Assembly: GCA_027972325.1 (NCBI GenBank)
Contig: JAPMOS010000040.1
Location: forward strand, 124,001-188,000
Origin: Paratrimastix pyriformis
Taxonomy: Eukaryota > Preaxostyla > Paratrimastigidae
Direction of reading: 5' to 3'
Length of the DNA: 64,000 nt
A model generated the notes under the pieces. It saw only the letters and a program-made list of their open reading frames with translations, had not been told where the DNA came from and searched no databases. Positions 22,978 to 64,000 of this stretch are shown here, one piece after another. Numbering within the stretch: position 1 is the stretch's first letter; each line of letters begins with the position of its first letter. The translations under genes were made by a program, and so were the position numbers.

Positions 22978-23712
22978 CAGCAAGGAGGTTTCCCAAAAGA
23001 GATCTTTGCTCAGACGATCCCCGATGTGATGGTGTGCCACATTTGCCATGGTCTGTTTCTTCTGATGTCTGCTGCGCCTCTCGACGATTCAAATCGTTAA
23101 TCGTTGCAGGCGTGATGCGACAGGCCGTGACTCTGGCGTGCCCGAATAGTCACAAAGTTTGTGAGGCCTGCTGCGAAAGGTGGTTGAGACAGCAATCAAC
23201 ATGCCCGTCTGTCCGACCTCATCGTGATGGCGTCACACTTGTCCCGCCATTTCACACTAGGTGTTGCGGGCAGAGATTGGGCGAACCCCACTTCAACCAC
23301 GACCCTTCCTTCAACTCTTTGATACAACAGCTCTCGGTTCGGTGCAGGCAGGTCTGTTCCGTTGACACCGCAGAGTTTGCCACCACAAGACCAAACCCTC
23401 AACCAATAGGGGTGCGGATGGCGGGGGAAGTTGGAGGATCTTGTACAGCATGAAACCCAACAATGTCGCCATCGGATGGTCGGCTGCCCCCATGCGGGAT
23501 GCGCCCACCGTTGCCGGGCATCGGAGCTGTATGGTCTGGCCGGGGGAATAATGACATCCGATATCTTTCAACCCGTAGACCATCTGGAGCGGTGCCCGCC
23601 ACTCCCGCCAAATGTTGAGCCAGCATTCACCGGATTTGTGTGCTGCCTATTGGCGCTCGCCTTCATTGGGCTTTGCCTGGATTTCATTTTCCCCACTAAG
23701 TCCCGCTTTTGA
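22978..23712 (+). CDS. RING/TRAF-type zinc-finger protein with C-terminal membrane anchor
   Basis: Five exons with four tiny introns: 23051-23109, 23207-23260, 23352-23430 and 23534-23578 (59, 54, 79 and 45 bp), all starting GTCTG and ending AG. Splicing gives VMVCHICHG|VMRQAV, STCP|CCGQRL, VRCRQ|LEDLVQ and SELY|DHLERC in frame. Domains: a RING finger with C-x2-C (CHIC), CPNSHKVCEACCERW and CPCC; a TRAF-type finger CPHAGCAHRCRASELYDHLE then RC; then a hydrophobic segment FTGFVCCLLALAFIGLCLDF and a short basic tail to the stop at 23712. Known: TRAF/SIAH-like RING proteins act as E3 ubiquitin ligases. The tail anchor suggests membrane attachment with the RING in the cytosol. The 5' exon(s) upstream of about 22978 were not found. 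Splice phase makes this one of the surest gene models here. Confidence 0.82.
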
Positions 23713-23849
23713 GAAAAATGCATTGCAGAAGAAAAGATGGTCAGATTTTCTGTCAACTTTTTGTCACTATTGCCCGACGTCCTCGCAAAACGCTGCATAT
23801 CCTCTGAAACACTGTGAGAATAAACTCGCGACCTCTTTCATACTGGCAA

Positions 23850-62800: not shown

Positions 62801-64000
62801 ACCAACACGGCCCTCCGTGCGTTGGATGTCAGCGACCAGTGCATGGGCGATGAGGGTCTGTGTCGATATGTGTCGATGTGTCGGGTATGTGTCGATGTGT
62901 CGGGTATGTGTCGATGTGTCGGGTATGTGTCGATGTGTCGGGTATGTGTCGATGTGTCGGGTATGTGTCGATGTGTCGGGTATGTGTCGATGTGTCGGGT
63001 ATGTGTCGATATGTGTCGATGTGTCGGGTATGTGTCGATGTGTCGGGTATGTGTCGATATGTGTCGATATGTGTCGATATGTGTCGATATGTGTCGATAT
63101 GTGTCGATATGTGTCGATATGTGTCGATATGTGTCGATATGTGTCGATATGTGTCGATATGTGTCGATATGTGTCGATATGTGTCGATATGTGCGTCGGT
63201 ATGTGCGTCGGTATGTGCGTCGGTATGTGCGTCGGTATGTGTGTCGTATGTGTCGCACCCCACCAATCACCATCATCCAACCATCATCATCATCATCCAG
63301 TCATCATCATCATCCAGTCATCATCATCATCAATCATCATCAATCATCATCATCATCATCATCATCATCATCATCATCATCATCATCATCATCATCAATC
63401 ATCATCAATCATCATCATCATCATCATCCTCCTCCTCCGCATCCATCATCCTCCTCCTCCGCATCATCATCAACCATCATCATCATCATCCCCATCCGCC
63501 CCCCCTCGCAGGCGCCATTGCCTTGGCCGAGATGCTGCGTGCCAACCGCAGCCTCCGTGAGCTCTGCCTGGACGGCAACGGGTTCACCTTTGCCGGTCTC
63601 AAGGCCCTGCATGACGCCATTGCCACCAACGCCACCCTCGTGGAGGTCCGTCTGGTGTCAATCATCTTTCCGCCCACCGCCCCTGCCGTGACATCCATTC
63701 ATCCAATCAACCACCCAATCGTCACATTTTTGTGGGGGCGACTTCTGGGTGCAATTTTGTTTCAATTTTGCAAACAGATATCTTTCTCTCCCATCCGCCA
63801 CCCCGCCAGCACCCAATCGTCACAATTCTCTGCATAGCTGTGCACCTCTGTGGATGATCCTGCGATTTTGTCAAATTTCTCTCAATTTTTTATGCAATTT
63901 ATGCAATTTCTACACGCAATTTTCCGCTTTTTTGTCAATCATCTTTTCTCTCTCCATCCCGCCACCACAGCTGCCCGTGCCGACCCAGGATATCCAGGCG
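53834..64000 (+). CDS. CARMIL: CARMIL/LRRC16 family protein (PH-like plus leucine-rich repeats), 3' end outside the window
   Basis: ATG at 53834. Exons: 53834-53984, 54047-54298, 54353-54519, 55399-55560, 56031-56153, 56884-56961, 57281-57355, 57994-58060, 58799-58890, 60084-60284, 61226-61295, 61558-61655, 62699-62855, 63512-63645, 63971 on. All joins are in frame, and 13 of the 14 donors are GTCCG or GTCTG. Exons 1-2 give the PH-like domain (KRVCALSRFRFMTIK, EHISEIQVASS). Then HTINLNLVTGLTLAEF, HCDTWFTRL, ALPQGIRVLKLTRANITPRG, SLVHLDLSHNDM, LRSLDLSENRL, VVHIDISANED, NRWLRFLSLARAW, LRRLNLAGGG, LRELCLDGNGFTFAG and LPVPTQDIQA. Block order and phrases follow animal CARMIL (for example WFTKL, LPKGLKHLNLSK, STLVHLDLSGN, MPIPMYDASQA). 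Known: CARMILs bind actin capping protein and membranes and promote actin assembly at the leading edge. The capping-protein-binding tail would lie past the window. Duplicated exon edges fill several introns. Confidence 0.92.
54590..55398 (+). repeat. CARMIL intron with (GGTGGC)n, (CAA)n and earlier copies of the next exon
   Basis: Intron 54520-55398. (GGCGGT)n at 54605-54720, CTCC-rich stretch to 54850, (CAA)n at 54943-54982, and an AATGACATTTTTTCAATGAC-like repeat at 55150-55345. GGCATCATCCGGTCGCTGCA (55077) and GGTATCATCCGCTTGCAACT (54874) are diverged copies of the true exon start GGTATCATCCGGTCGATGCA at 55399. Confidence 0.85.
55561..56030 (+). repeat. CARMIL intron with a duplicated exon tail
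   Basis: The exon end from GGGCCGTGGCTGCCCTGGCC to CGCGAG|GTCCGGACTCGG (55486-55572) is repeated at 55748-55846, donor included. GAAGAGAAATTTCAAAAATT-like AT-rich units follow each copy. Confidence 0.9.
56196..56883 (+). repeat. CARMIL intron: (CAT)n then (CATTAC)n
   Basis: Donor GTCCGTCTT at 56154. CAT runs with CAGCCAATCAT interruptions to 56755, then ten CATTAC hexamers (56755-56815) and CAATCGTCC units before the acceptor CCCACAG. Confidence 0.95.
56962..57280 (+). repeat. CARMIL intron of CCCTTCCCTCC units and poly-C
   Basis: Donor GTCCGCCGC. CTTCCCTCCC-type repeats, poly-C (57165-57175, 57247-57266), then CACACACACAG as acceptor. An inner GACATCCCCACCACAGGCGCTGCCTGG (57190) is a decoy copy of the acceptor and exon start. 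Confidence 0.85.
57385..57940 (+). repeat. CARMIL intron (CAT)n
   Basis: Donor GTCCGCCAC at 57356; long CAT runs with a block of ATCATCATCCAATC units (57550-57700); acceptor CTTTCAG ending at 57993. Confidence 0.95.
58061..58798 (+). repeat. CARMIL intron: (GAT)n, (GGTGAG)16 and three decoy exon starts
   Basis: Donor GTCCGTACC. GAT runs to 58240, sixteen GGTGAG hexamers (58243-58338), then GATTGATGAT units. CCAACGTGCCCCTGGGTTTG (58530, 58616) and a variant at 58709 precede the true exon start ACACCAACGTGCCCCTGGGT at 58799. Confidence 0.9.
58891..60083 (+). repeat. CARMIL intron with (ACACATG)n, dispersed repeat and decoy exon edges
   Basis: Donor GTCCGTCAA. A copy of the exon tail CCTCGACCTCTCCGAGAACC through the donor-like GTCCGCCAA recurs at 58945-58985. 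Then CACACATGACA-type repeats (59020-59685), the 96-bp dispersed repeat (59682-59777), and a decoy copy of the next exon at 59811 (ATGGACGCCCTCTGCATGGT), diverged after about 55 bp. The true exon is at 60084, after a C20 tract and CTCGACAG. Confidence 0.9.
59682..59777 (+). repeat. Dispersed 96-bp repeat, copy 2
   Basis: Starts CACGGGTGCAGCGACATTCG; differs from the copy at 34168 by a few bases. Lies inside a CARMIL intron, so its position here is not intergenic. No terminal inverted repeats; CA-rich at one end. Confidence 0.85.
60285..61225 (+). repeat. CARMIL intron with three repeats of the preceding exon tail and donor
   Basis: ATGCGGGTGGTGCATATCGA... CACAGCTGGGGCCG|GTCCGTTCAG at the true exon end (60211-60294) recurs at 60696-60780 and 60894-60975 (donor GTCTGTAC), and in shortened form at 61127-61185. 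GAT/GTTGAT runs separate the copies. Confidence 0.93.
61656..62698 (+). repeat. CARMIL intron: (GAT)n and a decoy of the next exon start
   Basis: Donor GTCCGTGCC. GAT/GTTGAT and TTGGATGATGAT runs to 62330. TGGGTCCAACCCACCCTGCG (62445-62515) is a diverged copy of the exon that starts TGGGTCCAAACCTGCCCCAC at 62699. Each copy follows a stretch of TCTCATTTGATAT and GTGCAG. Confidence 0.92.
62856..63511 (+). repeat. CARMIL intron: GTCGATATGT minisatellite and (CAT)n
   Basis: Donor GTCTGTGTCG at 62856 runs directly into tandem units: GTCGATGTGTCGGGTATGT (19 bp) to about 63060, GTCGATATGT (10 bp) to about 63190, then GTGCGTCGGTAT units to 63245. CAT and CTCCTCCGCATC repeats (63265-63480) follow, and the acceptor is CCCCTCGCAG. 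Confidence 0.92.

Follow-up and report, generated by a model that had tools for sequence, protein, structure and literature searches.

In the single-celled anaerobe Paratrimastix pyriformis (Preaxostyla), the introns that gene structure allows us to place begin mostly with GTCYG and never with GTRAG, and all eight U1 snRNA genes found carry a changed 5' end. The GTCYG donors, first noticed in the initial annotation of the window (the whole stretch of 64,000 nucleotides that was analysed), are confirmed here. Read from sequence, the two changes very probably represent a co-evolutionary switch that U1 and its donors have completed, for which we infer U1 expression, use of the pairing, genome-wide reach and the co-evolution itself. 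With good, if slightly lower, confidence we describe the outcome as a re-specified U1:5' splice site code of the whole genome, in which the helix has changed on both sides at +3 and +4, the canonical U1 is gone, and U6, U5 and U2 are kept.

Donor words where gene structure fixes the intron

Spliced alignment to protein profiles, with no donor-context prior and with GT or GC allowed together with AG, placed 71 introns in 18 gene strands, 65 of the 71 at GT; the six placed at GC are probably misplacements. Adding the 13 introns of the deposited CARMIL model gives a set of 78 GT introns, which start with GTCYG in 62 cases, GTCGG in six and GTTYG in six (GTTCG and GTTTG, three each), the remaining four being GTGCG, GTATT, GTTCA and GTCGT, one each. 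Neither GTATG nor GTRAG (GTAAG or GTGAG, where the initial annotation had allowed that the true donors might lie) occurs among the 78. The claim that donors are almost only GTCYG was thus a little strong, with 16 of 78 using other words, yet the excess is far above chance: GTCYG makes up 5.8% and GTRAG 2.4% of all GTs in the profile-searched DNA (binomial p about 1e-61 for 62/78 against 5.8%). Within the 65 GT profile introns, position +3 is C in 57, +4 is T in 32, C in 26, G in seven and never A, +5 is G in 62 and -1 is G in 51, so that the consensus of the sampled introns is roughly G|GUCYGY. Raw GTCYG words are hardly over-represented on the + strand of 22978-64000 (110 observed vs about 97 expected under a first-order Markov model; GTRAG 50 vs 44), and the signal is therefore visible solely at introns fixed by gene structure.

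A Prp8 profile built from 37 of the 120 homologs listed yielded 15 introns when only GT/GC..AG borders were allowed, comprising 13 GTCYG, one GTCGG, one GTTCG and no GTRAG. All 15 recurred within 4 nt when no donor or acceptor rule was imposed, and ten of them then reached the same score with GT-AG. Forbidding GTC lowered the score from 4822 to 4466, a loss of 356 bits. The PDK1-family profile (119 homologs) was tried on 39 kinase strands, and the 17 scoring at least 70 contributed 56 introns, none of them GTRAG. Several kinase junctions have weak flanks, with local scores close to zero or negative in four cases, and nine of the 71 profile introns lack GT with G at +5 (the six GC and three others).

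The PDK1 and CARMIL genes of the window match the deposited P. pyriformis proteins P0121 and P0241, respectively, without mismatch. Mastigamoeba (Archamoebae), considered at first as the source because Entamoeba has GTTTGT donors, was rejected on the strength of these matches and of the lack of a NifU match; a Prp8 tree of 53 rows did not place the genome. By these proteins, 12 of 13 CARMIL introns and all three PDK1 introns start with GTCYG; the gene models of the species came from Augustus retrained on curated genes with RNA-seq intron hints (PMC10703272). The introns and the evidence placing them are as follows.

44231..44281, + strand: PDK1 intron, donor GTCTGT, acceptor TAG (P0121 mapped to the window; PDK1-family profile)
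44412..44511, + strand: PDK1 intron, donor GTCTGT, acceptor TAG (P0121; PDK1-family profile)
44619..44671, + strand: PDK1 intron, donor GTCCGT common to P0121 and profile (acceptor 44671 by P0121, 45138 by profile)
45677..47059, + strand: later PDK1 intron, donor GTCTGC (PDK1-family profile only; P0121 ends upstream)
54299..54352, + strand: CARMIL (LRR-16-like) intron, donor GTCTGT (P0241 mapped to the window)
54520..55398, + strand: CARMIL intron, donor GTCCGC (P0241)
55561..55629, + strand: CARMIL intron, donor GTCCGG, absent from the initial list (P0241)
55834..56030, + strand: CARMIL intron, donor GTCCGG, absent from the initial list (P0241)
56154..56883, + strand: CARMIL intron, donor GTCCGT (P0241)
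56962..58610, + strand: CARMIL intron, donor GTCCGC, enclosing 57356 and 58061, which the P0241 model does not use (P0241)
58630..58798, + strand: CARMIL intron, donor GTTTGA, the sole exception of 13 (P0241)
58891..60083, + strand: CARMIL intron, donor GTCCGT (P0241)
60285..61225, + strand: CARMIL intron, donor GTCCGT (P0241)
61296..61557, + strand: CARMIL intron, donor GTCCGT (P0241)
61656..62698, + strand: CARMIL intron, donor GTCCGT (P0241)
62856..63511, + strand: CARMIL intron, donor GTCTGT (P0241)
63646..63970, + strand: CARMIL intron, donor GTCCGT (P0241)

All 21 donor words listed in the initial annotation are present where it placed them. As intron starts, 13 agree exactly with P0121 or P0241 and 45677 with the profile alone, while 57356 and 58061 go unused in the P0241 model; this check left aside 23051, 23207, 23352, 23534 and 49630, together with the KDZ-like, hAT-like and C2 genes. 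A fourth PDK1 intron was placed by the profile at GTGCG, beside a frame break.

U1 snRNA genes and their fit to the donors

U1 genes were sought by three routes, namely Rfam RF00003, a pattern with positions 5-6 left free, and the U1 body minus its first 12 nt, and each route led to the same eight loci. The search space was 56.06 Mb in 495 contigs, compared with 56.63 Mb in 633 scaffolds as published (PMC10703272), and the best candidates were scored. All eight genes start AUACAGACCUUG, not AUACUUACCUG, with A and G at nucleotides 5-6 where the Rfam consensus has UU, and this 5' end is fully complementary to CAAG|GUCUGUAU. From the donors, the initial annotation had argued that this lineage should have an altered U1 snRNA or an altered donor-reading step, and had named an ACRGAC-like end replacing ACUUAC as supporting evidence. 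The U1 genes support this view: the eight loci all start AUACAGACC and none starts AUACUUACC. Each RF00003 match spans positions 1-166, two copies being aligned over all 166, and the scores of 50.8-60.2 bits (best match 60.2 bits, E 2.7e-13) lie below the gathering cut-off of 69.5. The one copy that was folded computationally gives the U1 cloverleaf (MFE -71.1, z -2.95); in this fold of the strand by itself, nt 4-8 are additionally paired with the region of the Sm site. The loop of stem-loop 1 reads GAUCACACAGG vs GAUCANGAAG, which we take to be the U1-70K site, with GAUCA kept and the rest changed.

Over the 78 donors, the predicted duplex averages -8.5 kcal/mol with the organism's own U1 vs -4.3 with the canonical end, compared with -4.4 and -3.7 kcal/mol for 2000 random GTs. 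The own U1 is predicted to pair better in 72 of the 78, the canonical one in six. The change in U1 does not account for C at +4, present in 36 of 78 donors, which is mispaired with U1 A5 where exact complementarity predicts U. The +4 base varies with intron length: among GTCYG introns of at most 80 nt, 20 of 26 are GTCTG, and among longer ones 25 of 36 are GTCCG (Fisher p 0.0007). Since this association weakens to p 0.005 without CARMIL and to p 0.15 without CARMIL and Prp8, it may be a gene effect. Neither the free pattern nor the U1-body search turned up an additional U1 whose position 5 is G.

Human variant U1s carry changed 5' ends, and the AUACAGACC copies might likewise be a variant family, with splicing done by a canonical ACUUACC U1 that lies outside the searched contigs or is too diverged. 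Coexistence of this kind has precedents in a C-run copy of a diplonemid (PMC12621601) and in the human variants (PMC5159530), and the contigs searched are fewer than the scaffolds published. Against this, the three routes converge on the same loci, and the seven further matches to the free pattern, each with three mismatches, coincide with no RF00003 or U1-body match and compare with nine for the reversed control. A canonical end would moreover pair at +3 in 3% and at +4 in 9% of the 78 donors. We consequently regard a hidden canonical U1 as improbable.

The rest of the spliceosome and a possible mechanism

Genes for U1, U2, U5 and U6 snRNA are all present. The ACAGAGA box of U6 is unchanged in the four of four matches read, GUAGUA of U2 in three read of ten matches, and GCCUUUUAC of U5 in one read of seven. 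The genome also holds a METTL16-domain match (PF05971) and two zf-U1 matches, of which the stronger (L056) presumably resembles WBP4, and the weaker (L057) reads by eye as a U1C-like gene whose introns start GTCTG and GTTTG. U12-type donors have the form RTATCCTT; none was found among the 71 profile donors, from runs to which AT donors are invisible, or the 13 CARMIL donors. A branch-point search returned mainly pyrimidine-rich words, plus CTCAC and CACAC.

The unchanged U6 box would also suit a reading in which donors are recognised mainly by U6, U5 or proteins, the U1 change being a by-product with no role in donor choice. A review argues that the site can be settled at the step where the donor passes to U6, and it cites Cyanidioschyzon as lacking U1 (PMC11732430). 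The U1 change, however, sits on precisely the two nucleotides that face +3 and +4, fits the C that 57 of the 65 GT profile introns have at +3 and is identical in all eight copies. Position +3 is not known to be contacted by the U6 ACA triplet, so U6 leaves this C unexplained; we judge a by-product somewhat less probable still than a hidden canonical U1. That the introns are misplaced or non-spliceosomal (cf. euglenid nonconventional introns) and the true donors ordinary is hardly credible, for although long, low-complexity introns leave some junctions uncertain, as do the nine profile introns without GT and G at +5 and the PDK1 placement at a frame break, the Prp8 introns recur without a border rule, barring GTC is costly, the deposited proteins agree and the four snRNA genes are present.

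Under the favoured switch of U1 and donors, U1 would make the first contact with the donor just as it does in other organisms, through a changed recognition word: U1 G6 would pair with +3 C, and A5 with +4 U, not with +4 C. U1 would then pass the donor to the unchanged U6 ACAGAGA box. This box pairs with +4 to +6, and it should still be able to pair with +5 G and, where present, with +4 U and +6 U. An ancestor with +4 U is plausible because the donors of Streblomastix are GUAUG. One possible order is that U1 position 5 went from U to A first, strengthening the pairing, followed by U to G at position 6 and A to C at donor +3.

Comparison with known systems and significance

With canonical U1 and its GURAGU or GUAUGU donors, the P. 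pyriformis system shares the full-length RF00003 match, GT-AG introns and a helix across exon end and intron start; it differs in having AG for UU at U1 nucleotides 5-6 and GUCYG donors. Saccharomycotina likewise underwent lineage-wide donor changes at +4, A/U switches linked to METTL16 and SNRNP27K, but their U1 is unchanged, ACUUACC being invariant in a survey that found U1 in 227 of 230 genomes and nine of ten outgroups. A change of U1 position 5 from pseudouridine to A was proposed there as a possible compensation and not found (PMC10581693); in P. pyriformis position 5 is A, and position 6 has changed as well. Fritillaria borealis, with its non-GT/AG introns, also has most introns off the usual donor and solely a U2-type spliceosome, but strictly preserves the U1 5' end, and the explanations offered are a duplication of U2AF and changes in m6A (PMC13326754). 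The diplonemid S. specki has a natural U1 copy with a changed 5' end, which coexists with canonical U1 (PMC12621601), as do the human variants (PMC5159530), whereas no canonical copy was found in the P. pyriformis contigs searched. The oxymonad Streblomastix strix, a member of Preaxostyla compared in the P. pyriformis genome paper (PMC10703272), also has GT-AG introns, but its donors are GUAUG, with A at +3, U at +4 and G at +5 (21 introns), from which a conserved U1 interaction was inferred by its authors (PMC1501061).

We found no report of a GTCYG donor consensus, of this U1 change or of a genome-wide switch in a literature search that covered largely the main text of open-access papers. 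The available portions of the genome paper contain no discussion of the donors that we could find, though the deposited proteins use them (PMC10703272). Surveys elsewhere report the main U1 5' end as unchanged (PMC10581693, PMC13326754), and it is usually deemed fixed, ACUUACC being retained in 236 yeast and outgroup U1s despite +4 switches (PMC10581693). As the eight genes score under the Rfam cut-off, searches keyed to that cut-off or to ACUUAC can miss U1 genes, a point that matters for organisms in which U1 is reportedly missing, e.g., Entamoeba histolytica (review PMC13292270). A lineage in which both partners have moved makes testable the order of U1 and donor change, the dispensability of the uridines at U1 positions 5-6, and which of U1 and U6 is limiting when donors are chosen. 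If true, the switch would be nature's equivalent of the U1 suppressor experiments done in the laboratory, completed genome-wide.

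Intron donors in P. pyriformis genes

For the metamonad Paratrimastix pyriformis (phylum Preaxostyla), we searched 56.06 Mb of genome in 495 contigs; the window covers 124001-188000 of contig C333. A profile of 37 homologs of the conserved splicing protein Prp8, picked among 120 listed, was compared with genomic DNA using a purpose-written spliced aligner whose sole intron rules were a GT or GC start and an AG end. Over the 10-kb stretch used, which stops before the end of the gene (reference column 1751), this alignment yielded 15 introns: 13 start with GTCYG, one with GTCGG, one with GTTCG and none with GTRAG. 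With donor and acceptor rules removed, the 15 introns were recovered within 4 nt, GT-AG being available at equal score in 10, while disallowing GTC donors lowered the score from 4822 to 4466 bits. A PDK1-family profile (119 proteins) was then run on the PDK1 gene of the window and both strands of 19 other kinase loci, 17 of the 39 strands scoring at least 70. Both profiles together gave 71 introns on 18 gene strands (GT start 65, GC start 6). GTCYG opens 50 of the 65 GT introns and GTRAG none, their background frequencies among all GTs of the searched sequences being 5.8% and 2.4%. By position, the 65 carry C at +3 in 57, T, C, G and A at +4 in 32, 26, 7 and 0, G at +5 in 62 and G at -1 in 51. 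Many of the odd donors belong to weakly matching junctions; many loci are only distantly related to the kinase profile, so individual kinase junctions can be off.

Exon composites of the window matched two deposited P. pyriformis proteins, PDK1 (P0121; 96% identity, 64% of query) and CARMIL (P0241, 'putative leucine-rich repeat-containing protein 16'; 83%, 70% of query). Mapped back, both reached full identity minus the set per-intron cost (P0121, 1041 of 1065; P0241, 3037 over residues 1-629, where the window ends), with GTCYG at 3/3 PDK1 introns and 12 of 13 CARMIL introns, the other being GTTTG. According to the genome paper, the assembly comprises 633 scaffolds and 56,627,582 bp (G+C 60.9%; 56.6% in the window), and genes were modelled by Augustus, which had been retrained on a curated set and given intron hints from RNA-seq (PMC10703272). 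Both proteins presumably derive from this annotation and, if so, carry transcript evidence indirectly.

Pooling gave 78 GT introns (65 + 13, PDK1 entered once) from 19 gene strands, a small fraction of the genome: GTCTG 31, GTCCG 31, GTCGG 6, GTTCG 3, GTTTG 3, and GTGCG, GTATT, GTTCA and GTCGT once each. All 21 GTCYG words listed as donors in the initial annotation exist where it placed them; of the 16 compared with homology or gene models, 13 are intron starts in the deposited proteins and one more is by profile, while 57356 and 58061 fall inside one annotated intron. The raw GTCYG count of 22978-64000 (plus strand) is near expectation (110 observed vs 97 expected).

P0121 and the profile end the third PDK1 intron at different acceptors, and the fourth donor by profile, GTGCG, adjoins a frame break. 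At 45139-45202, TFCG and SAAVSPEVL lie in separate frames, and the deposited PDK1 (213 aa) stops earlier; sequence error, unusual splicing or decay are alternative explanations. In CARMIL, the peptide RAVAALAAMLATNRSLATLETPNLGAPRE occurs twice (55474-55560 and 55747-55833), each copy followed by a GTCCGGA donor. Introns at about 45700-47000, 56200-58000 and 62900-63500 consist mostly of simple repeats, which translate into lengthy stretches of H, I, S and similar residues.

U1 genes and snRNA promoters

Rfam model RF00003 detected eight U1 genes in the 495 contigs, each match spanning positions 1-166 at 50.8-60.2 bits, all below the gathering score of 69.5. The consensus 5' end AUACUUACCUGG is replaced by AUACAGACCUUG in two aligned copies, and all eight copies read the same. 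A pattern leaving U1 positions 5-6 free had eight exact matches, all with AG there, and seven additional matches with three mismatches (nine for the reversed-pattern control). The U1 body minus its first 12 nt found the same eight loci and no others in these contigs, at 96-100% identity. Upstream sequences of the eight genes are dissimilar save for short common elements. The initial annotation had anticipated a change in U1 or in donor reading, and the 5' end is indeed altered, in 8/8 copies, at the nucleotides facing the altered donor positions. In a predicted lone-strand fold of one copy (L003), CAGAC of the 5' end pairs with GUUUG of the Sm-site region, which may be chance or possibly linked to the altered end.

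CCCATAA, the core of the Dictyostelium DUSE, precedes the RNA start by 54-67 nt in 16/16 snRNA genes read (L003-L014, L030-L032 and L058; eight U1, three U2, one U5, four U6), usually as a T-run followed by CGTCCCATAA. This element resembles the DUSE, which sits ~60 nt upstream, serves genes transcribed by Pol II as well as Pol III and, in some groups, has three Cs (PMC7919456).

Predicted pairing and other spliceosome parts

Counted in a fixed register with wobble included, the U1 of P. pyriformis is predicted to pair at +3 with 97% of the 78 donors and at +4 with 45%; for a canonical ACUUACC end the figures would be 3% and 9%. Mean predicted duplex energies are -8.5 and -4.3 kcal/mol, respectively, for these donors and -4.4 and -3.7 for 2000 random GTs. 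Individual predicted duplexes score as follows: CAAG/GTCTGTAT (-17.2 with own U1, -7.3 canonical), CAAG/GTCCGTAT (-12.5, -6.4) and CAAG/GTAAGTAT (-9.6, -12.5), the slash marking the exon end. Canonical U1 is the better predicted partner for 6/78 donors.

In spliceosome structures, ACA of the U6 box faces donor +4 to +6, so that no change in U6 would be needed; ACAGAGA is present in all four equal-score U6 matches. U2 has nine full matches and one partial (GUAGUA in the three copies read), U5 has seven (GCCUUUUAC in the one copy read), and LUC7 matches fall at two loci. A candidate U1C-like gene, read by eye, encodes YCDYCDVFLTHDS, SVRKSHNNGWK and HKANVRAYYQQF, joined over introns starting GTCTGT and GTTTGT. 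At the 36/78 donors with +4 C, U1 A5 and the U6 A would both face C unpaired; a modified A5 may account for these +4 C donors, as may base composition.

A METTL16-domain match (PF05971, E 2.3e-16) lies on another contig (C332 38824-39153, minus strand) of this metamonad, and may instead represent a bacterial-type relative of the domain; donors nevertheless avoid +4 A (0/65). A published survey gives no METTL16 in the Excavata it sampled (PMC10581693).

Relation to known systems

As read from sequence, donors and U1 are two independent lines that agree at exactly the mutually facing nucleotides, as foretold before these checks. In the literature searched, mostly open-access main texts, we found no report of a genome-wide switch of both U1 and donors. 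Saccharomycotina differ in keeping the U1 end unchanged, their authors having considered A at position 5 and found ACUUACC invariant (PMC10581693). The end is likewise unchanged in Fritillaria, with 95% non-GT/AG introns (PMC13326754), and in two nucleomorphs (PMC6461891). Alongside its normal U1, a diplonemid carries another with a C-run (PMC12621601). Since the oxymonad Streblomastix uses GUAUG donors (PMC1501061), the +3 donor change would, in this comparison of two Preaxostyla, have arisen on the Paratrimastix side, the order of steps being an inference.
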